A stretch of 64,000 nucleotides of DNA, taken from positions 6,944,001 through 7,008,000 of the forward strand of contig CP082844.1 in the NCBI GenBank assembly GCA_019930625.1. The letters are read 5' to 3'. Under the pieces are notes generated by a model. The model ran no database searches and had not been told where the DNA came from. It was given only the letters and a program-made list of their open reading frames with translations. Below, in pieces: positions 2,610 to 33,205 of this stretch. Numbering within the stretch: the first letter of the stretch is position 1; each line of letters starts with the position of its first letter. A program made the position numbers and the translations under genes. The DNA comes from Nocardia asteroides (lineage in GTDB: Bacteria > Actinomycetota > Actinomycetes > Mycobacteriales > Mycobacteriaceae).

Positions 2610-4793
2610 TCAACTCAATCCGGCGGCGTCCATGCCGCGCAATTCCTTCTTCAGATCCGCGATCTCGTCGCGTAACCGCCCGGCGAGCTCGAACTGCAAC
2701 TCCCGGGCCGCGTTCATCATCTGTGCGGTGAGTTCCTTCACGAGATCGGCCAGTTCGGCGCGCGGCATCGACTTGACGTCGCGGCCTTCGTACACCCCCG
2801 CGCTCACCGCGCGGCCCGGCTCGCCTTGCGCACGCCTGCCACGGCTGGCATTGCGTCCGGAACCGCCGACCTCCACCTCGTCGGCCTCCCGATACACCTG
2901 GTCGAGGATGTCGGCGATCTTCTTGCGCAGAGGCTTGGGATCGATGCCCATTTCCTCGTTGTAGGCGACCTGCTTCGCGCGACGGCGCTCGGTCTCGTCG
3001 ATGGCGTACTGCATCGAATCGGTGATCTTGTCCGCGTACATGTGCACTTCACCGGAGACGTTTCGCGCCGCGCGGCCGATCGTCTGGATCAGTGCGGTGG
3101 TGCTGCGCAGGAATCCCTCCTTGTCCGCGTCGAGGATCGCCACCAGCGACACCTCGGGCAGGTCGAGACCCTCGCGCAGCAGGTTGATGCCCACCAGTAC
3201 GTCGTATTCGCCGAGCCGCAGCTGCCGCAACAACTCGACGCGGCGCAGCGTGTCGATCTCGGAGTGCAGGTAGCGCACCCTGACCCCCAGCCCGAGCAAG
3301 TAGTCGGTGAGGTCCTCGGCCATCTTCTTCGTGAGCGTGGTGACCAGAACGCGCTCGTCGCGCTCGGTGCGCTGCCTGATCTCGTGGATCAGATCGTCGA
3401 TCTGCCCCTTCGTCGGCTTCACCACGACCTTGGGATCGACCAAGCCGGTCGGCCGGATGACCTGCTCGACCACTTCACCGCCGGTCTGCCCCAGCTCGTA
3501 CGGACCCGGAGTGGCCGACAGGTAGACCGTCTGCCCGATGCGATCGGCGAACTCCTCCCAGGTCAGCGGCCGGTTGTCCACCGCGGACGGCAACCGGAAG
3601 CCGTATTCCACCAGGTTGCGCTTGCGGGACATGTCGCCCTCGTACATACCGCCGATCTGGGGGACGGTGTTGTGCGACTCGTCGATGACGAGCAGGAAGT
3701 CCTCCGGGAAGTAGTCCAGCAGCGTCGCAGGCGCCGAACCGGCCGGACGGCCGTCGATGTGGCGCGAGTAGTTCTCGATGCCGGAGCAGAACCCGACCTG
3801 GCGGATCATCTCCAAGTCGTACTGGGTGCGCATGCGCAGCCGCTGCGCCTCGAGCAATTTCCCCTGGCGTTCCAGCTCGGCGAGCCGCTGCTCCAGCTCG
3901 GCCTCGATTTCGCGCACCGCGCGCTCCATCCGCTCCGGCCCCGCCACGTAGTGGGTGGCGGGGAAGATCCGCAGCATGTCCACCTGGCGGACCACGTCGC
4001 CGGTGAGCGGGTGCAGGTAGTACAGCGCCTCGATCTCGTCGCCGAAGAACTCGATACGGACGGCGAGTTCCTCATAGGACGGAATGATCTCCACGGTGTC
4101 GCCGCGCACCCGGAACGAGCCGCGGGTGAACGCCATGTCGTTGCGGGTGTACTGCACGTCCACCAGCAGCCGCAGCAGCGCGTCCCGATCGAGCTCGGTG
4201 CCGACCTGCAACTGCACCGACCGGTCGAGATACGACTGCGGCGTGCCGAGACCGTAGATGCACGACACGGAGGCGACCACCACCACGTCGCGCCGGGACA
4301 GCAGGCTGGAGGTCGCCGAATGGCGCAGCCGCTCGACATCGTCGTTGATCGAGCTGTCCTTCTCGATGTAGGTGTCGGTCTGCGCGATGTACGCCTCGGG
4401 TTGGTAGTAGTCGTAGTAGGAGACGAAGTACTCCACGGCGTTGTTCGGCAGCATCTCGCGCAGCTCGTTGGCCAGCTGGGCGGCGAGCGTCTTGTTCGGC
4501 GCCATCACCAGCGTCGGCCGCTGCAACCGCTCGATCAGCCAGGCCGTGGTGGCCGACTTTCCCGTACCGGTGGCGCCGAGCAGTACCACGTCGCGCTCTC
4601 CCGCTCTGATCCTGCGCTCGAGCTCGGCGATCGCGGCGGGCTGGTCGCCCGCGGGCTGGTGATCACTGACCACCTCGAACCGGCCGCCGACACGCTGGAT
4701 CTCGCCGACCGGGCGGAACTCCGAGTGCGCCAGCGGTTGCTCGGCGGCCCTGTCCTCGTAGCCCTCCGCCGGGATCTCGGTTGCGAATGCCAT
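2610..4793 (-). CDS. uvrB: UvrABC system protein B (excision nuclease helicase subunit)
   Basis: A 727-residue UvrB, the damage-verifying superfamily 2 helicase-like subunit of bacterial nucleotide excision repair, which is loaded by UvrA and recruits UvrC. Visible parts are the Walker A G-A-T-G-T-G-K-S, the beta-hairpin region ([10 protein letters not shown]), the D-E-S-H Walker B, the helicase motif [14 protein letters not shown] and the C-terminal UVR coiled coil that binds UvrC. The ATG at 4793 gives M-A-F-A-T, matching the usual mycobacterial start region; the frame stays open 34 codons further but that stretch is Arg-rich and unlike UvrB. No LexA-type SOS box was recognised upstream. 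Confidence 0.97.
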
Positions 4794-4995
4794 GCCCACC
4801 AGCGTAGGCCCACTCACCGACAGATTCCCGGGGCGGCGGGCGGCCACGAATCGACGAACTGCTCGCCGGACCGGTCGGCGCGGCAACAAACGCATCGGGC
4901 CTCCGAGCCGGCCACGGCGTCACGCTCACCTGATGTAGCTCGCGGATTACTGCGTCCGACTCGACGGGCCGGGGGCGACGGTAGATTCTTGAGGC

Positions 4996-5520
4996 ATGAC
5001 GCAGGCACCTATCGTCGACGTGCACCGGCCCAAAGTCGAGTACTTCAACATCGCGGACCTGACGAACACGGATCCGAAGGGATTCGTACGCACGGTCGAG
5101 AAGTACCGCGTCGAGCCGTGGGGCCTGTACATGGCGCGTACCTCGGACCATTCGCAGTTCCATTACATCGAGTCCTGGCTGCTGCCGAAGCTGCACCTGC
5201 GCGCGACCATCTTCCACTATCTCCCCGCCCACCGGCGCGACCAGGACTACTACCTCGACGTCGGTGACTTCAGGGTGGTCGCCCCGAAGAAGTGGATGGC
5301 CGTCGACCACTACCTCGACATCATCGTGCGCTCGTCGCGCGACACCCAGTTGCTGGACGTCGACGAACTGCTGGCCGCACACACCGCGGGACTGATCTCC
5401 CTCGCCGACGCCGAGGCGGCCGTGCAACACGCGACCGCCGCCATCGACGGCATCGCCGCCAACGGCCACACCTTCGAAGGATGGTTGGAGACGATGGACA
5501 TCACCCTCACCTGGCTGTAG
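4996..5520 (+). CDS. DUF402 domain-containing protein
   Basis: A 174-residue protein of the DUF402/FomD-like family. The core reads G-L-Y-M-A-R-T, then D-Y-Y-L-D-V-G, then a V-D-H-Y-L-D-I-I-V segment and an L-L-D-V-D-E-L helix, the pattern of this fold. Some relatives hydrolyse nucleoside diphosphates or cytidylylated intermediates with metal ions; whether this one does is not known. The start is the ATG at 4996. It is divergent from uvrB and convergent with coaE. In M. tuberculosis a small conserved gene also sits between coaE and uvrB (Rv1632c), but I have not established that they are orthologous. Confidence 0.8.
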   Translation: MTQAPIVDVHRPKVEYFNIADLTNTDPKGFVRTVEKYRVEPWGLYMARTSDHSQFHYIESWLLPKLHLRATIFHYLPAHRRDQDYYLDVGDFRVVAPKKWMAVDHYLDIIVRSSRDTQLLDVDELLAAHTAGLISLADAEAAVQHATAAIDGIAANGHTFEGWLETMDITLTWL

Positions 5521-5773
5521 CGCCAGTCGCCCGTAGGCCGTAGCCCACACACGCGGAGGCGGTCCAGTCATGAGCGATCGCGTTCCAGCACCGTCCGGGT
5601 CCTCGAAGTACCGCGCGAACTGATTCTCCACGCGCGGAACCGGCCCCGGGCAACACCCCGAACGAGCGGGCCGAGAGCTGTCTCGGTACAGCGCGAGCGG
5701 ATCGCGGTCGAGCCGCACGGACTCCGACGAAGGCCGAGAACGGCGGGGGGTGAACTCGACCGTCGCCGTAGTG

Positions 5774-8169: not shown

Positions 8170-8880
8170 CTACAGGCCGAGAGACCGGACCAGGTCACGC
8201 ATCTCGGCGCGGAAGAGTTTCGCCGGGTCTCGGGATTGCGGGCGCAGGTGGCCGTACACCTCGAGCGCGATCAATCCGTGCATCCTGCCCCACATGCGCA
8301 GAGCCAGAGCCAGCGCGTCCGGAGGCAGCTCCGGGAAGTCGGAACGGACGTGCTCCGCCAAGGCCGCGTCGAAATCCGACCACGCGCAGTCCCCGGCAGT
8401 CTGCGTGGCCGCGGCCCGTGGCCATGCGGCACTCGCCAGACCGACCAGCCCGGTGCAGGCACGCAATTCGGCCGCTGCGGCGGGACCACCCGGCGGCGGC
8501 CTGTAACCGGGCACCGGGTCACCATAGATGAGCCGGAATTCGGCGGGCCGCTCAACGGCCCAAGCGCGCACGCCCTCGGCCCAGGCCATGATGCGCCCGG
8601 CCGGATCTTCGACCGGTACGGCGTCGCGTGCGGCTTCGAGGCGGTCGACCAAGGCGGTGTAGACGTCGGAGATGAGCGTGGAGATCAGGTCGTCGCGGGT
8701 GGCGTAGTAGCCGTATATCGCACCCGCCGTCATCCCCATCTCGCGGGCGATGGCACGCAACGAGATCGCGTCCGGACCTCCCTCCATGAGCAGCCGCATC
8801 GCGATCGCGGTGATGTCCTCCAGCGTCTGCGCGCGCAGGCGCTCCCGGCGACTTCTGACGACCTCGGCCACGGTTGACAC
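8170..8880 (-). CDS. TetR/AcrR family transcriptional regulator
   Basis: A 236-residue repressor. Residues 18-65 carry the TetR HTH, with I-S-L-R-A-I-A-R-E-M-G-M-T-A-G-A-I-Y-G-Y-Y as the recognition part. The C-terminal domain has the W-G-R-M-H-G-L motif seen in TetR proteins with a WHG-type ligand domain. It starts with GTG and is divergent from an NmrA/SDR-like oxidoreductase gene with about 75 nt between, which contains a dyad, so local and auto-regulation are likely. The ligand is unknown. Confidence 0.9.
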   Translation of the reverse strand: MSTVAEVVRSRRERLRAQTLEDITAIAMRLLMEGGPDAISLRAIAREMGMTAGAIYGYYATRDDLISTLISDVYTALVDRLEAARDAVPVEDPAGRIMAWAEGVRAWAVERPAEFRLIYGDPVPGYRPPPGGPAAAAELRACTGLVGLASAAWPRAAATQTAGDCAWSDFDAALAEHVRSDFPELPPDALALALRMWGRMHGLIALEVYGHLRPQSRDPAKLFRAEMRDLVRSLGL

Positions 8881-8909
8881 TCTACAGCGTTTGGCTACTA
8901 TCAGCCGTG

Positions 8910-8923
8910 CCGTTACTGAACGG
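8910..8923. promoter_or_regulatory. Candidate TetR operator (CCGTT-N4-AACGG)
   Basis: A perfect 5-bp inverted repeat with a 4-nt spacer in the divergent tetR/oxidoreductase promoter. A second, imperfect copy of the same half-sites follows at about 8919-8945 (AACGGCG and CGTCGTT). The location fits a TetR-type operator controlling both genes; assignment is by position only. Confidence 0.5.
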
Positions 8924-8956
8924 CGTGTAGTAAATGAACGTCGTTAAGGAGTAATG

Positions 8957-9634
8957 GTGGATATCGGAGTTTTCGGGGCTACCGGCGTCATCGGTTCGCG
9001 GGTCGTCGCCGAAGCCCTACAGCGCGGGCACCGGGTCACCGCCTTCACCCGCGACGCGGCCCGGTTCCCCGCTCGGCACGGGGACGAGACGTGGGCGGTG
9101 GCCGACTGGCTGAACGCCGAGAGCGTGGCGGCGGCGATCGCAGGCCTCGACGTGGTCGTGAGCGCGGTGAACGCGGGGCACGGCATCGCCGATACCATCG
9201 CCAACGCGCACGATTTCGTGGTTGGTGCGCGAGCGATGGTCGCCGCGCTGGATCGGCAGCCGCGCGTCCGGCTGATCGCGGTGGGCGGAGCGGGCAGCCT
9301 GGAGGTGGCGCCCGGCGTACAACTGCTCGACACCGGGGACGAGTTCATTCGCAATCTCACCGAAGTGCTCGACGTCCCGGCGGAGTATGTCGAGGTGGTG
9401 CGTGCGCTGCGCGACGCGTTGAACGTCTACCGGCTGTCCAACCGCAATTGGACCTATCTGAGCCCCTCCTCGGGGCGGATCAATCCCGGCGAGCGCACCG
9501 GCCGCTTCCGGATCGGCGGCGATCAGTTGCTCGTCGGCGGCGCGGATCTCTCCGCCGAAGACGTAGCGGTCGCGCTCCTCGACGAAGCCGAGCAACCCCG
9601 CTTCATCCAACGCCGGTTCACCGTCGGCTACTGA
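8957..9634 (+). CDS. NAD(P)-binding oxidoreductase (NmrA/atypical SDR type)
   Basis: A 225-residue Rossmann protein beginning I-G-V-F-G-A-T-G-V-I-G-S-R, the G-x-x-G-x-x-G dinucleotide motif of NmrA-like and atypical SDRs, followed by V-V-V-S-A-V-N-A-G-H-G and L-I-A-V-G-G-A-G-S-L. The fold is well supported; the reaction is not. An AAGGAG ribosome-binding site at 8946-8951 lies only 2 nt before the ATG at 8954 but 5 nt before the GTG at 8957, so the GTG is the more likely start. It is divergently paired with the TetR gene and probably repressed by it. Confidence 0.82.
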   Translation: MDIGVFGATGVIGSRVVAEALQRGHRVTAFTRDAARFPARHGDETWAVADWLNAESVAAAIAGLDVVVSAVNAGHGIADTIANAHDFVVGARAMVAALDRQPRVRLIAVGGAGSLEVAPGVQLLDTGDEFIRNLTEVLDVPAEYVEVVRALRDALNVYRLSNRNWTYLSPSSGRINPGERTGRFRIGGDQLLVGGADLSAEDVAVALLDEAEQPRFIQRRFTVGY

Positions 9635-9749
9635 GCGCGTACGAATCCACGGACCCCGTTTGTGTCGGACCCCTCCGGCACAATGAACATCGTCGGACGT
9701 CGAACGAGTTGCCGCCCAATGTAATCCGCAACCCGACCGAGGAGAGTCC

Positions 9750-10328
9750 ATGCCTGAAGTCCACGCTTCGACGCCCGACCCACGTGACCCGGCGACCATC
9801 GACATCGATCGCGCGATCGAGTCGGCGGTCGAGATCGAGCGGCACCGGTATCTGCTGCACCGCGCGGTGGAGGACTACCGGTTGCGGGTCAGGCGGCGGT
9901 TCGAGCATTTGGACCCGCCGGAGCTGGAACTGCGCCTGCGTCAAGCGGAGCAGTTCATCGAGGCGCTGATGATCGACCCGATCAGGCACGGTGCGCTGGA
10001 CTTGGTCGCCTACCGGGCAATTCGGGACGGTGCACCGGTCGTGTTCGATGCCGAGCGCCGGACGTATGTCCTGCGTCGGCACGGGCAGGCTCCATTGCCT
10101 ATCCGCCCTGGCTTGCCGGAGCATCGGCTGGGTGTGATCGCCCGGCTGGCGGGGATCGGCCTGCGTTTGGAGGAGATCCAGGTGGTGGCGCTCACGACGG
10201 CGCAGACAGTCGCTCCGCACGAAGCGGCCGAGCGACCCGAGGAGGTGCCCGAGGTGCAGCGCGGAACGACGAAGCCTTCACGGGGGATTCGCAGGCCGCA
10301 TCGCCGAAAGCGCCCTGCGGGGCGTTGA
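9750..10328 (+). CDS. Hypothetical protein, charged and helical
   Basis: A 192-residue soluble protein with no family I recognise. Residues 18-75 look like a long charged helical or coiled-coil segment (I-E-S-A-V-E-I-E-R-H-R-Y-L, then Q-A-E-Q-F-I-E-A-L). The middle contains short strands (V-F-D-A-E-R-R-T-Y-V-L-R), and the C-terminal 30 residues are Arg/Lys/Pro-rich and probably disordered. The start ATG has a GAGGAG site 7 nt upstream. It stands alone on the plus strand and converges with rpsA across a very strong hairpin. Confidence 0.7.
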   Translation: MPEVHASTPDPRDPATIDIDRAIESAVEIERHRYLLHRAVEDYRLRVRRRFEHLDPPELELRLRQAEQFIEALMIDPIRHGALDLVAYRAIRDGAPVVFDAERRTYVLRRHGQAPLPIRPGLPEHRLGVIARLAGIGLRLEEIQVVALTTAQTVAPHEAAERPEEVPEVQRGTTKPSRGIRRPHRRKRPAGR

Positions 10329-29086: not shown

Positions 29087-29260
29087 GCCCCAGAGTCTAG
29101 GGACCGGCACCGACAAGGCCATACGCCGACACCCGGCTGACCGACGGTCGGCGGCGCGCCGATCCCACCTGCGGCCCGGTCGGTACGCGGACCGCTCATT
29201 CACCCCTCGCCGTGCGGGTTGAAATGCGATGATAGAGACAGACTTCCATAAGGAGCCGCC

Positions 29261-29425
29261 ATGAAATCGCCCGCCGAGATTCCCCCGGTTTCCGCTCCGG
29301 CATCCGCGCTCGACCTGGCCCTGGAGCGATTGCACGCTCCGCGAGCCGCGGACTGCGCGGCCTACGCCCACAGTTCGAACGGGCGCGCGGTCACCGCCGT
29401 CCGCGCCCCACGACAAGACCGGTAA
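29261..29425 (+). CDS. Probable RiPP precursor peptide for the adjacent radical SAM maturase
   Basis: A 54-residue ORF not previously named to my knowledge, with AAGGAG 6 nt before the ATG. The N-terminal two thirds look like a leader with an amphipathic segment A-L-D-L-A-L-E-R-L-H; the distal part C-A-A-Y-A-H-S-S-N-G-R holds a Cys, a Tyr, a His and Ser/Asn residues suited to side-chain crosslinking, and a basic tail follows. The maturase gene begins 13 nt after the stop, which implies cotranscription. FxsB systems normally have precursors ending F-x-S-x-x; this one does not, so it would be a divergent core. Assignment is by position, size and composition. Confidence 0.6.
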   Translation: MKSPAEIPPVSAPASALDLALERLHAPRAADCAAYAHSSNGRAVTAVRAPRQDR

Positions 29426-29438
29426 TCCGGATACAGAG

Positions 29439-30665
29439 ATGTCGGCGGATCTGCCGTGGCCGGGCTTCTCCTCGGCTCCGGCGCGGCCGACCGGCGGATT
29501 CCGTCCGTTACGCGAGTTCGTTCTCAAGGTTCAGTCCCGGTGCAATCTGGACTGCGACTACTGCTACGTCTATCACTTGGCGGATCAGTCGTGGCGCAAC
29601 CAACCGCGCGGTATGGCGCCGGAAATCGTCGCCGCTGTCGGCGACCGCATCGCCGAGCACGCCCGTACACACGATCTGGACAGTGTGACCGTCCGGCTGC
29701 ACGGTGGAGAACCTCTGCTCGCAGGCCCTGACTACCTTGTGCGGATCGTCGACGAGCTGCGCCACCGACTGGCGCCCACCCGTGTCGTCGCTTCGGTTCA
29801 GACCAACGGCGTGCGGCTGGACGCGGTGGCCGCCGACCGCCTGATCGCAGCCGATATCGGCATCGGGATCAGCCTGGACGGAGACCGGAAGGCCAACGAC
29901 CTCCACCGGCGTTTCCGTAACGGCAGGTCCAGCTACGACACCGTCGTGGCGGCGATCGAGCTCATGCGTGAGCCGGAGCGGAGCGCGTATTTCAGCGGCG
30001 TCCTCTGCACCATCCAACTCGAGGCCGATCCGCTCGACGTCTGGCGGGCTTTGCGGGATAGGAATCTGCCCGCGGTCGATTTCCTGCTCCCGCACGGCAC
30101 GTGGGAGAACCCGCCGCCCGGTCTGGTTCCCGGCGACGGTCGTACTCCGTACGCCGACTGGCTGATACCCATCTTCGATGAGTGGTTCGATGCGGCCGAA
30201 TGTCCCTGCGGGGTACGTATATTCGAGGATTTGGTGCATCTGGTGCTCGGTGGTACCGAAAGCTATGAATCGTTCGGGCTGGATCCGGTGGCGCTCGTGG
30301 TCATCGAGACCGATGGTTCATACGAACAGGTGGACAGCATGAAAGCCGTGCACGACGGCGCAGCGGCCACCGGCCTGCATGTCCTGCGGCACGCACTCGA
30401 CGACGTGCTGCGACTACCGTCCTTCGTAGCCAGACAGCAGGGAATCGACGCGCTGTCGCCCATCTGTCGCTCCTGCGCACACCACCGGATCTGCGGTGGC
30501 GGCCTCTACCCCCATCGGTATCGGCCGGAGAACGGGTTCGGCAATCCGTCCGTCTATTGCGCCGACCTGTTCGCCTTGATCACTCATATAGAGCAGCGGG
30601 TTGCCGACGGCTTGGCGCGGCGCGGGACCTCACTCGCCGCAATCCGCGCCACCCGCAGGAGGTAG
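29439..30665 (+). CDS. fxsB: FxsB-type radical SAM/SPASM peptide maturase
   Basis: A 408-residue radical SAM enzyme: the C-x3-C-x2-C cluster is C35-N-L-D-C39-D-Y-C42, followed by V-R-L-H-G-G-E-P-L-L (SAM binding) and V-Q-T-N-G. The C-terminal SPASM region has Cys343, Cys346, Cys352 and Cys374 in an arrangement (C-x2-C-x5-C-G-G-G, N-P-S-V-Y-C-A-D-L) characteristic of FxsB maturases, which install carbon-carbon cyclophane links in small precursor peptides. It follows the 54-residue precursor-like gene by 13 nt and ends 5 nt from a convergent NB-ARC/TPR gene of the type seen in FxsB loci. Confidence 0.88.
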   Translation: MSADLPWPGFSSAPARPTGGFRPLREFVLKVQSRCNLDCDYCYVYHLADQSWRNQPRGMAPEIVAAVGDRIAEHARTHDLDSVTVRLHGGEPLLAGPDYLVRIVDELRHRLAPTRVVASVQTNGVRLDAVAADRLIAADIGIGISLDGDRKANDLHRRFRNGRSSYDTVVAAIELMREPERSAYFSGVLCTIQLEADPLDVWRALRDRNLPAVDFLLPHGTWENPPPGLVPGDGRTPYADWLIPIFDEWFDAAECPCGVRIFEDLVHLVLGGTESYESFGLDPVALVVIETDGSYEQVDSMKAVHDGAAATGLHVLRHALDDVLRLPSFVARQQGIDALSPICRSCAHHRICGGGLYPHRYRPENGFGNPSVYCADLFALITHIEQRVADGLARRGTSLAAIRATRRR

Positions 30666-30670
30666 CAGCC

Positions 30671-33205
30671 CTAGCTCCCGTGCCCATCCTCCGAATCGAC
30701 CCCCAGTTCGCGCAGGCGCGCACGCACCTCGTCGGCACGGGGTGAACCCGATTCCACGTAAACGGCCAATGCTTGGAGCAGCGCGCTCTGCGCGCCCACC
30801 TGGTCGCCGAGCAACCGCCGGGTCTCCCCGAGGGCGTAAAGGGTTTCCGCCTCCCCGAAACGGTCGCCGCTCATCCTCCGCACCGCCAGCGCCTCTTCGT
30901 AAGTATCCGCTGCCTCCCCGTACCGGAGCATGGCCTGCAGGGTGGTACCCAGGTCGTGCAGTACGTTGCCCTCGGTGTGCGAGTCGATGCCATGACAAGC
31001 CGCGAGGGCATCCCGGTAGAGCCGTTCCGCCGCCGGGTAGTCACCGTGATCGAAGCGCGCACCGGCGAGGACATCTCGCAGCACAATGGCTTCGTTGCGC
31101 CGATCGCCGATCGCGCGCCAGATCGCGAGGGCCTGTTCGCCCAGCTCGCTGGCATAGTCGGGGCGGTCGAGCTCGCGCGCGGCCTCCCCGAGGTTTCCCA
31201 GCGCCATGCCCTCGCCGATCCGGTCGCCGATCTGCCGGTTGATCCGCAGCGACTGCTCGTACGCCGACCGCGCCTCTTCGAAACGGCCGACCTCGACCAA
31301 CGCGCCACCCAGACTGGTCAGGCACCACTGCTCGGCGAAGGCGTCTCCCGCCTCCCGCGCCGCGGTCACGGCGAGTTCACTGGTCGTCAGCCAATCGTCG
31401 TGGTGACGGCGGATCTTGTAGAAAGTCACCGCGGCCAGCGCCAGCCGCCATGCGACGTCCGGCATACCGTCCGTACCGGCGGCCCGTATCGCCGCGACCA
31501 GGTTGGCTCTCTCGCTGTCACACCACTTCAGAGCATTGTCGTAGTCGCCGAACTCGGTGGTCGGAGTGCCGGGGCCGGGCGGCTCGAGCGGCACATGCCG
31601 ACGCAGCGGCGCCAGCAATCGGTCGGCGGCGTCCACGGTATGCGCGTACCAGTCGAGTTCCCGAGCCAGCGCAGCGTGACGCGCTCCGTCGGGCTCGTCT
31701 TCCGCGGCTCGCTCTGCCGCGTACTCCCGCAACAGGTCCAGCAATCGGTAACGATTGCGGGACAGGCGCTCCAGCACACTGAATGCCACGAGGGAGTCCA
31801 GGATTCGGCGGGCTCGATCCGCCGGAACACCCAGCAGCGCCGCCGCGGCCGTGGTGCTGAATTCATCGCCCGGATGCAAACCGAGAAGCCGGAATGCACG
31901 GCGGAGATCATGGGGCAGATTCCGGTAAGACCAGGAGAACACCATCCGTACCTCCGATGTCGGGTCACCGTCCACACCGGCCAGTGCGTCCAGCCGGTTC
32001 CGTTCGTTCGACAGCTCGGCCGCGAGCTCACCCAAGGTCATGCCGGACACGGCGGCGTGCTCCGCAGCGAGCTTCAGCGTCAGCGGCAGATGCCCGCACA
32101 TCCGTGCGACCTTCGCCGCCGCGGCGCTGTCCTGCGAGCCGGTCGCGGTCCTCAGCAACGTCTCGGCGTGGGCCGGCATCAGTGGCCGTAACACCAGCCT
32201 GCTCGCATCGTCCCGTACCACCAGCCCGGACAACGGGCTTCGTGACGTGATCACGGTCGCGCAGCAAGGCGGCGGCAGCAGCGGCCGCACTTGTTCCGGA
32301 GTCAAGGCATTGTCGATGACCACCAGCACGCGCCGCCCATCGAGCAGCGCGCGGTAGCGCTGCGCCAGCCGTTCCACGTCCAGCTCCGGGTCCCCCTGCG
32401 CGGTGTCGTCGAGGGTCCGCACGAAACGATCCAGGGCCTCGTAGGCCGTCGATGCCGGCATCGCGCTGTACCCGTGCAGATCCAGATACAGTTGCCCGTC
32501 CGGGAACTCCGCGCACAGCGCGTGCGCCACCCGGACCGCCAGCGTCGACTTTCCGACACCGGGCGGACCGCTGATGATGCCGATCGAGCGCGCGCACGTT
32601 CCGTCACCGCGCAGTAGTGCGGTCAGCCAGGCGCTGTCCTCGGCGCGATCGGTGAAACCCGATGCAGCGGCCGGTAATTGACGTGGGCGAGGTCTCGAAG
32701 CCGGCGCCACGACAGGGCCGCGCATCGCGTCGTCGAGCATCAGCTGGGCGATGGCTTGCGTCAGCGCGGCGTCCAGCTCACCCGGGTCGGCGACGCGGGC
32801 GATCGTCAGCCCGGAATCGAGCAGCCGAGCGTGGAACGCGAGCTGGCGGGCGTCGGCCGGCCTGGGTGAATCGTCCGCGACCAAGAACACCAGTCTGCGT
32901 TTGCCCGCCGCTGTGGCGGTGTCGAACTCGAGTTCGGTGTAAGAGCGTGACGGGTCATCGGGCACCGGCGAGCCGTAGTTGCTCCCGATGATCCCGACGT
33001 ACAGATCGGCGAGACCGACCAGCTCCGCGCACACCTGGGCAGGTGGCCGGCCATCGGCGGCGAAGTACTTCATGTCCACCGGCGCATGCCGGAACCTTTT
33101 CACCGCTTCCTCGGCCGAGGTGATCCAGGAACGTCCACTCGGCTTGGACCGGAGATCACGAGTGTGACTCAAGAACACCCGCCACGGCCGTCCGACCGCT
33201 GTCAC
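30671..33205 (-). CDS. DUF4062 / NB-ARC / TPR protein (FxsT-like)
   Basis: An 844-residue STAND-type protein. Residues 1-160 match DUF4062 (W-R-V-F-L-S-H-T-R-D-L-R; Y-V-G-I-I-G-S-N-Y-G-S-P; S-Y-T-E-L-E-F). An NB-ARC NTPase follows with P-loop G-P-P-G-V-G-K-S-T and sensor T-S-R-S-P-L-S-G-L, then a winged helix and about six C-terminal tetratricopeptide repeats (E-A-R-S-A-Y-E-Q-S-L-R-I and similar). Such proteins act as nucleotide-gated sensors or scaffolds and recur beside FxsB-type maturases. It starts with GTG and converges tail to tail with the maturase gene. Its role in processing or in response to the peptide is not known. Confidence 0.88.
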   Translation of the reverse strand: MTAVGRPWRVFLSHTRDLRSKPSGRSWITSAEEAVKRFRHAPVDMKYFAADGRPPAQVCAELVGLADLYVGIIGSNYGSPVPDDPSRSYTELEFDTATAAGKRRLVFLVADDSPRPADARQLAFHARLLDSGLTIARVADPGELDAALTQAIAQLMLDDAMRGPVVAPASRPRPRQLPAAASGFTDRAEDSAWLTALLRGDGTCARSIGIISGPPGVGKSTLAVRVAHALCAEFPDGQLYLDLHGYSAMPASTAYEALDRFVRTLDDTAQGDPELDVERLAQRYRALLDGRRVLVVIDNALTPEQVRPLLPPPCCATVITSRSPLSGLVVRDDASRLVLRPLMPAHAETLLRTATGSQDSAAAAKVARMCGHLPLTLKLAAEHAAVSGMTLGELAAELSNERNRLDALAGVDGDPTSEVRMVFSWSYRNLPHDLRRAFRLLGLHPGDEFSTTAAAALLGVPADRARRILDSLVAFSVLERLSRNRYRLLDLLREYAAERAAEDEPDGARHAALARELDWYAHTVDAADRLLAPLRRHVPLEPPGPGTPTTEFGDYDNALKWCDSERANLVAAIRAAGTDGMPDVAWRLALAAVTFYKIRRHHDDWLTTSELAVTAAREAGDAFAEQWCLTSLGGALVEVGRFEEARSAYEQSLRINRQIGDRIGEGMALGNLGEAARELDRPDYASELGEQALAIWRAIGDRRNEAIVLRDVLAGARFDHGDYPAAERLYRDALAACHGIDSHTEGNVLHDLGTTLQAMLRYGEAADTYEEALAVRRMSGDRFGEAETLYALGETRRLLGDQVGAQSALLQALAVYVESGSPRADEVRARLRELGVDSEDGHGS

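Follow-up and report, generated by a model that had tools for sequence, protein, structure and literature searches.

An FxsB-family maturase, a precursor with a Tyr-x-His-x-Ser core and a DUF4062-NB-ARC-TPR protein in Nocardia asteroides: apparently a new offshoot of an established family of modified peptides

We analysed a small locus in a stretch of Nocardia asteroides DNA of 64,000 nucleotides (the window, by which we mean that whole stretch). A gene for a 54-residue peptide is followed by a gene for a radical SAM/SPASM maturase and by a convergent gene for a receptor-like ATPase. The first-pass annotation had proposed that a ribosomally synthesized and post-translationally modified peptide (RiPP) is made here from a non-canonical precursor, and the arrangement it described is indeed present: a strong ribosome-binding site precedes the open reading frame (ORF), 13 nt separate the precursor stop from the maturase ATG at 29439, and 5 nt separate the maturase from the convergent gene. 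The features are as follows.

29261-29425, + strand: precursor peptide gene, 54 aa, recognised from the ORF call, its relatives and core conservation
29250-29255, + strand: ribosome-binding site AAGGAG before the precursor gene; all 4 Nocardia loci have AGGAG in this position
29306-29329, + strand: leader motif ALDLALER, residues 16-23; A16, L17, A20, L21 and R23 are invariant in 11 aligned rows
29360-29380, + strand: core A-Y-A-H-S-S-N, residues 34-40, with Tyr35, His37 and Ser39 as putative crosslink residues
29402-29422, + strand: basic tail, residues 48-54, an Arg-rich stretch kept in relatives
29439-30665, + strand: FxsB-family radical SAM/SPASM maturase, 408 aa, recognised from profile scores, tree and alignment
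30671-33205, - strand: convergent DUF4062-NB-ARC-TPR protein, 844 aa, of STAND/NLR-like architecture (STAND, signal transduction ATPases with numerous domains; NLR, nucleotide-binding leucine-rich-repeat receptors)
32915-33181, - strand: DUF4062 (TIR-like) domain of that protein, residues 9-97, with SYTELEF at 88-94 and in it the candidate catalytic Glu
32546-32569, - strand: Walker A motif GPPGVGKS of its NB-ARC ATPase, residues 213-220

The maturase is a member of FxsB by score (478 bits to TIGR04269, cut-off 370), as had been proposed, and its second-best model is YhhB (356 bits, cut-off 445). The radical SAM motif C35/C39/C42 and the cysteines C343/C346/C352/C374 are invariant in an alignment of 42 sequences. 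The closest solved relative is ChlB (9gm3, 9gmc), with 257 bits to the radical SAM domain of 9gm3 over maturase residues 25-389.

The small ORF is a genuine gene: in frame and immediately before the maturase, it is present in all ten loci of the clade defined below (4 from Nocardia and 6 from Frankiaceae), that is, in nine loci besides that of the window, which bears out the proposed RiPP-type pairing of precursor and maturase. The precursor ends in PRQDR and not in F-x-S-x-x, and the basic tail and the internal C-A-A-Y-A-H-S-S-N-G-R segment are both there; in 5 of 6 Frankiaceae precursors the sequence extends further, beyond the Arg-rich stretch. The core A-Y-[A/V]-H-x-[S/T] occurs in 10 of 10 rows, all of them found by position, so that the Y-x-H-x-S pattern noticed earlier is kept as Tyr-x-His-x-[Ser/Thr]. 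An eleventh alignment row comes from a second small ORF of the Actinomadura locus L056 (core Q-Y-V-H-G-S), and across all eleven Tyr35 and His37 are invariant and position 39 is Ser or Thr. Since the L056 row was noticed by its leader and then by a motif search, it cannot count as independent evidence for the motif. This second precursor-like ORF (Actinomadura sp. HBU206391, L056:3365-3475, NALELALIRR...QYVHGSF) adjoins an NB-ARC/TPR-type gene at 3556-5679 on the - strand.

Within the genus, the three relatives share 76, 51 and 51% identity. The ratio of nonsynonymous to synonymous substitution rates (dN/dS) for the whole ORF is 0.25 for the pair of the window and N. pneumoniae and 0.25 to 0.70 across within-group pairs. 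In the core, which has only 8 codons, the proportion of nonsynonymous differences (pN) is 0 to 0.16 against 0.17 to 0.75 for synonymous ones (pS); 15 of the 21 possible within-group pairs were computed. Between-group pairs are near saturation, with a core pN of 0.22 to 0.46 (3 pairs). The window precursor has no match in NCBIfam, Pfam or PADLOC, and the precursors of loci L033, L036 and L039 and the second Actinomadura precursor have none in NCBIfam. The locus defines a precursor family for which our searches of NCBIfam and Pfam returned no model.

The ten maturases that go with Y-x-H-x-[S/T] precursors fall into a single group in a tree of 91 (97/79, which is slightly short of the star mark). 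Its sister consists of Lentzea, Actinoallomurus and Actinomadura enzymes (99/91). All 13 rows unite in a 100/100 clade that excludes both YhhB and the FxS-type enzymes of Nocardia. At tree row L063 no small ORF was observed. The Lentzea precursor ends in HTDHTNTHSSNPW with an H-S-S core and carries H-x-D, H-x-N and H-x-S without Tyr; those of Actinoallomurus and Actinomadura contain YECTSWSSG (W-S-S core). An aromatic residue, any residue and Ser or Thr (Ar-x-[S/T]) is the element common to 13 of 13 rows. The Lentzea locus (L041:9362-11816), with its multi-His precursor, also has two more radical SAM genes downstream of the maturase.

The clade is rare and its two genes occur together. We searched 148 genomes of the genus, 70 loci from a scan of named genomes, and a class sample of 394 genomes; in the class genomes at most 4 candidates per genome were scored for the maturase and at most 16 for the precursor. 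Besides that of the window, the genus search gave close maturases at 79, 75 and 71% identity, in N. pneumoniae, N. aurantia and N. rhizosphaerihabitans, each with an in-frame small ORF directly upstream. The remaining FxsB-family matches were at or below 51%, except for a partial match at 54% and one at 64% over 33 residues. The named-genome scan also gave Frankia nepalensis, Parafrankia soli and two Pseudofrankia, and the class sample two further loci, whose peptides are identical to those of Pseudofrankia sp. DC12 and P. inefficax. A profile of 11 precursors matched 8 of the 394 class genomes, and seven of these are exactly the genomes with a maturase of at least 63% (next best 55%); the eighth match (G208) is weak, with E 8.6e-4 and a position inside a 412-aa frame. 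The first precursor profile, of four rows, had matched 3 of 198 relatives, all of them clade genomes.

A protein search returned 13 precursors among 5.8 billion sequences. Six of the seven that were inspected read Y-x-H-x-[S/T] and one, on a 597-base contig, reads F-A-H-N-S; in view of this relative, the residue at position 35 may need only to be aromatic, not Tyr in every case. We also compared the upstream small ORFs at 90 loci, leaving the window out: the 9 clade loci alone combine Y/F-x-H-x-[S/T] with the leader motif, and dropping the leader requirement adds one locus (L053). A loose F-x-[S/T] near the C-terminus is found in 42 of the 90, clade locus L040 included, and SYDRMHHRH in 10. 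Plasmid-borne relatives of the maturase came to 19 records and those of the convergent protein to 28, all below 60% identity, and none of the latter covers 80% of that protein.

The convergent protein (the partner from here on) has the domains that had been assigned to it, with DUF4062 at 53.9 bits (cut-off 24.7), NB-ARC at 26.4 (cut-off 23.5) and TPR. Its ATPase/TPR part resembles AfsR in a match that begins at profile position 229; the matches listed (25 of 33 Pfam families) include no SARP-type domain. The first-pass annotation took it to suggest a peptide-linked sensing function. The receptor-like make-up agrees with this, and the DUF4062 domain allows a more specific statement: excerpts of a 2026 preprint (PMC13174449) describe DUF4062 as a TIR-like NADase with a catalytic Glu. 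All 7 distinct partners retain the stretch SYTE[L/M]EF, the candidate site of that residue. By this analogy the partner probably destroys NAD via its DUF4062 domain.

Seven of the 10 clade genomes have a partner homologue of at least 58% identity next to the maturase and convergent with it (in G005 the homologue is split by a contig end, with the N-terminal part on another contig). In the class sample, where 2 candidates per genome with E 1e-90 or better were scored, the partner occurs in 4 of 394 genomes, all of the clade, and in 0 of 387 others; the next-best match, at 44%, leaves DUF4062 uncovered. A DUF885 protein with HE-x-x-PGH, possibly a peptidase, fills the partner's slot in the three clade genomes that have no partner (found by Pfam in two and by tblastn in one). 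DUF885 had no match in the three Frankiaceae loci with a partner. Four Frankiaceae loci, of which two have the partner and two have DUF885, share the downstream gene that borders the slot; that gene was not found in the two other Frankiaceae loci.

L144:8291-10114, L145:8801-10516 and L146 about 8566-10281: DUF885 protein directly after the maturase

The polA gene lies upstream in the N. pneumoniae (95%) and N. rhizosphaerihabitans (88%) loci; none was detected in the N. aurantia locus, which spans 13 kb. As precursor, maturase and partner are still adjacent in N. aurantia, at another place and without polA, the three genes seem to travel or remain as one unit. A possible GTG start of the N. 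aurantia maturase is overlapped by the precursor stop.

The coupling of FxSxx peptides and a SPASM maturase to TIR/AP-ATPase/TPR proteins is already in print, with the peptide proposed to be a toxin or a signal (Kaur et al., PMC7159879, excerpts), and the locus is therefore a variant of a described kind. It shares with the AP-ATPase systems of those excerpts a SPASM maturase, a small precursor and an AP-ATPase with TPR. With FxSxx/FxsB (TIGR04268, TIGR04269) it shares a maturase over the cut-off, a precursor directly upstream, an Ar-x-Ser core and a TIR-like, NB-ARC and TPR partner. Unlike in FxSxx, the core of the window precursor is internal with His and Tyr and its C-terminus is of another kind, the TIR-like part is a DUF4062 domain fused to the ATPase, and the TPR protein scores 88 bits against the NF040586 cut-off of 300. 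FxsC (TIGR04276) had no match in four Nocardia genomes (G000, G005, G091, G127); it was over its cut-off in 4 of 16 genomes searched, including clade member G287, elsewhere in its genome.

In YhhA/YhhB (NF041705, NF041707) Tyr and His also take part in triceptide crosslinks, and YhhB is the second-best maturase model; here, however, the maturase stays below 445 bits and in a separate clade, and the YhhA core SYDRMHHRHNRS has Arg acceptors. The YhhA model matched none of 4 clade precursors (window, L033, L036, L039), whereas the control L060 gave 59.6 bits. HaaA/HaaB/HaaT likewise combines a His-based triceptide (PMC11002830, excerpts) with an NB-ARC/TPR partner, but the HaaT model reaches 257 of 1125 bits, and the HaaB acceptor is Ala where here it would be Ser or Thr. 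The radical SAM domain of ChlB is fused to an HExxH hydroxylase (PMC12636437, excerpts), unlike the 408-aa protein of the window, which lacks such a part. Swarozyc and the DUF4062 TIR-like NADases (PMC13174449, excerpts) have the same domain with a conserved Glu; in the present locus, known from its genes, DUF4062 is joined to NB-ARC and TPR beside a RiPP maturase. Known defence models matched the locus only as viperin-like radical SAM, TPR and weak ATPase. One published collection, that of Sugiyama 2022, reportedly holds 3940 precursors. Text searches of the open literature with the motif and core strings gave no match; the searches did not extend to the studies by Sugiyama 2022, Phan and Morinaka 2022, Morishita 2024 and Ruel 2025, and absence from print is not implied.

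From the conserved residues we infer that the maturase very probably ties the Tyr-x-His-x-Ser core into a ring. According to excerpts of PMC11002830, the three-residue cyclophane-forming enzymes (3-CyFE) link an aromatic residue i to the beta-carbon of residue i+2, and Tyr and His rings are made by YxdB, HaaB and YhhB. Here the AL-x-x-AL-x-R leader would bind the maturase, which would take a hydrogen from a beta-carbon and bond that carbon to the aromatic ring two residues earlier. Because the 13 rows all share Ar-x-[S/T], the Phe-Ser pair probably corresponds to His37-Ser39 here, so that a His-Ser/Thr ring would replace the Phe-Ser ring of FxSxx peptides. The invariance of Tyr35 suggests a second ring, from Tyr35 to His37, which would be fused to the other through the same His. 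This two-ring product seems to us the likeliest, yet it is a tentative proposal, which we hold at somewhat below even. Of the Tyr-, His- or Cys-based crosslinks considered at the outset, Tyr and His agree with the conservation. A Cys-based one is unlikely, because 7 of 10 rows have His, Asn or Ser in place of Cys32 and Cys is absent altogether from the N. aurantia precursor (L034).

A single ring from His37 to Ser39, FxSxx-like with His for Phe, would also agree with the Ar-x-[S/T] shared by all 13 rows and with the Lentzea precursor, which has its H-x-D, H-x-N and H-x-S without Tyr; Tyr35 would then serve recognition or activity. However, all 11 rows, of which one was motif-found, have Tyr35, and the sole replacement seen is aromatic; we consider this reading possible though on the unlikely side. 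The opposite single ring, from Tyr35 to the His37 beta-carbon with Ser39 incidental, has precedents for Tyr donors in YxdB and YhhB and accounts for both invariant core residues. It is the less probable of the two and in our view unlikely, with position 39 being Ser or Thr in every one of the 11 rows and the sister loci retaining Ar-x-Ser without Tyr-x-His.

The maturase could instead modify another FxSxx precursor of the genome, with the small ORF as a bystander. An FNSFI-type FxS precursor-like stretch does exist 1.45 Mb away (G000:C1:5518423-5518512, - strand, equal to L170:8424-8513, E 1e-6), so that part of the concern raised earlier was justified; yet a stop codon lies within its leader frame, and the one FxsB gene over the cut-off in this genome is that of the window (elsewhere there is a 30.7-bit match). 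FNSFI-type precursors accompany another maturase clade, the stretch has no match in three sister Nocardia genomes (150 of 205 to 223 first-look candidates scored), and the small ORF accompanies its maturase in 10 of 10 loci. The stretch is probably a remnant of another FxS system, and a bystander role for the small ORF is very improbable. The TIGR04268 FxSxx model found nothing over its cut-off in 7 genomes, this one included, which says little because genomes with FxS precursors (G134, G126, G014) were missed too; the FxS precursor search in genomes was then done with two purpose-built profiles.

As for function, we infer that the peptide acts as a ligand or an amplifier of the receptor-like ATPase, and that NAD would be destroyed by the TIR-like domain at the N-terminus of this protein. 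The peptide could also be an exported toxin or signal by itself, with the DUF4062-NB-ARC-TPR gene merely adjacent, in line with the three loci of ten where a DUF885 protein takes the slot. The partner is nevertheless found in clade genomes only, it stays with the pair in N. aurantia, and a related coupling has been reported (PMC7159879, excerpts); we regard mere adjacency as rather doubtful. A role of the system in cell defence or signalling is possible. The boldest version, in which a fused bicyclic cyclophane on a single His is the specific ligand of an NLR-like NAD-destroying receptor, and so a RiPP-gated immune receptor, we consider quite improbable.

Taken as a whole, the reading in which the locus stands alone as a RiPP system and belongs to a separate FxsB subclade, with a fused two-ring product and a peptide that works with the partner, has about an even chance of being right. 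Several observations weigh against it. No precedent was found in the literature examined for one His as both beta-carbon acceptor and aromatic donor. Three sister loci have no Tyr-x-His in the precursor adjoining the maturase. The leader and tail evolve fast, as shown by one leader pair with a dN/dS of 1.4 and one tail pair, of 9 codons, with 3.5, and the genome holds the FNSFI-type stretch. Three of the 10 loci have an intact precursor core but no partner, so that the peptide cannot depend on the partner at every locus. Pfam scans of Nocardia neighbours (4 in the window, 6 in L034 and 4 in L035, not every neighbour) showed neither a peptidase nor a hydroxylase, and the same neighbours include no zincin-like metallopeptidase or vWA/MoxR gene. 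The rarity of the family, at 13 database precursors, limits the claim. If it is right, the conserved Ar-x-His-x-Ser/Thr core predicts a possibly unprecedented fused ring, a small modified peptide is tied to a receptor-like ATPase with a DUF4062 domain, and the locus offers a minimal three-gene system with which to approach the role of FxSxx-type peptides.

Upstream of the precursor lies one further conserved element.

29221-29235, + strand: GAAATGCGATGATAG block with GAAATGYGATGAT, kept in 4 of 4 Nocardia loci

The GAAATGYGATGAT block is a possible core promoter or regulator site. It has no sigma-70-type match, and none like it was seen in the 6 Frankiaceae upstream stretches inspected. Between 28900 and 33500 there is no Rfam match to a structured RNA. 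In Frankiaceae (L143), AAA and VWA_CoxE genes lie upstream, beside malate synthase, and are taken as ordinary chromosomal neighbours. In five Streptomyces FxsB-type loci (L043, L044, L046, L047, L049) the precursor upstream of the maturase has an NSALGHVLRRL-like leader and an F-E-S-type core near the C-terminus.

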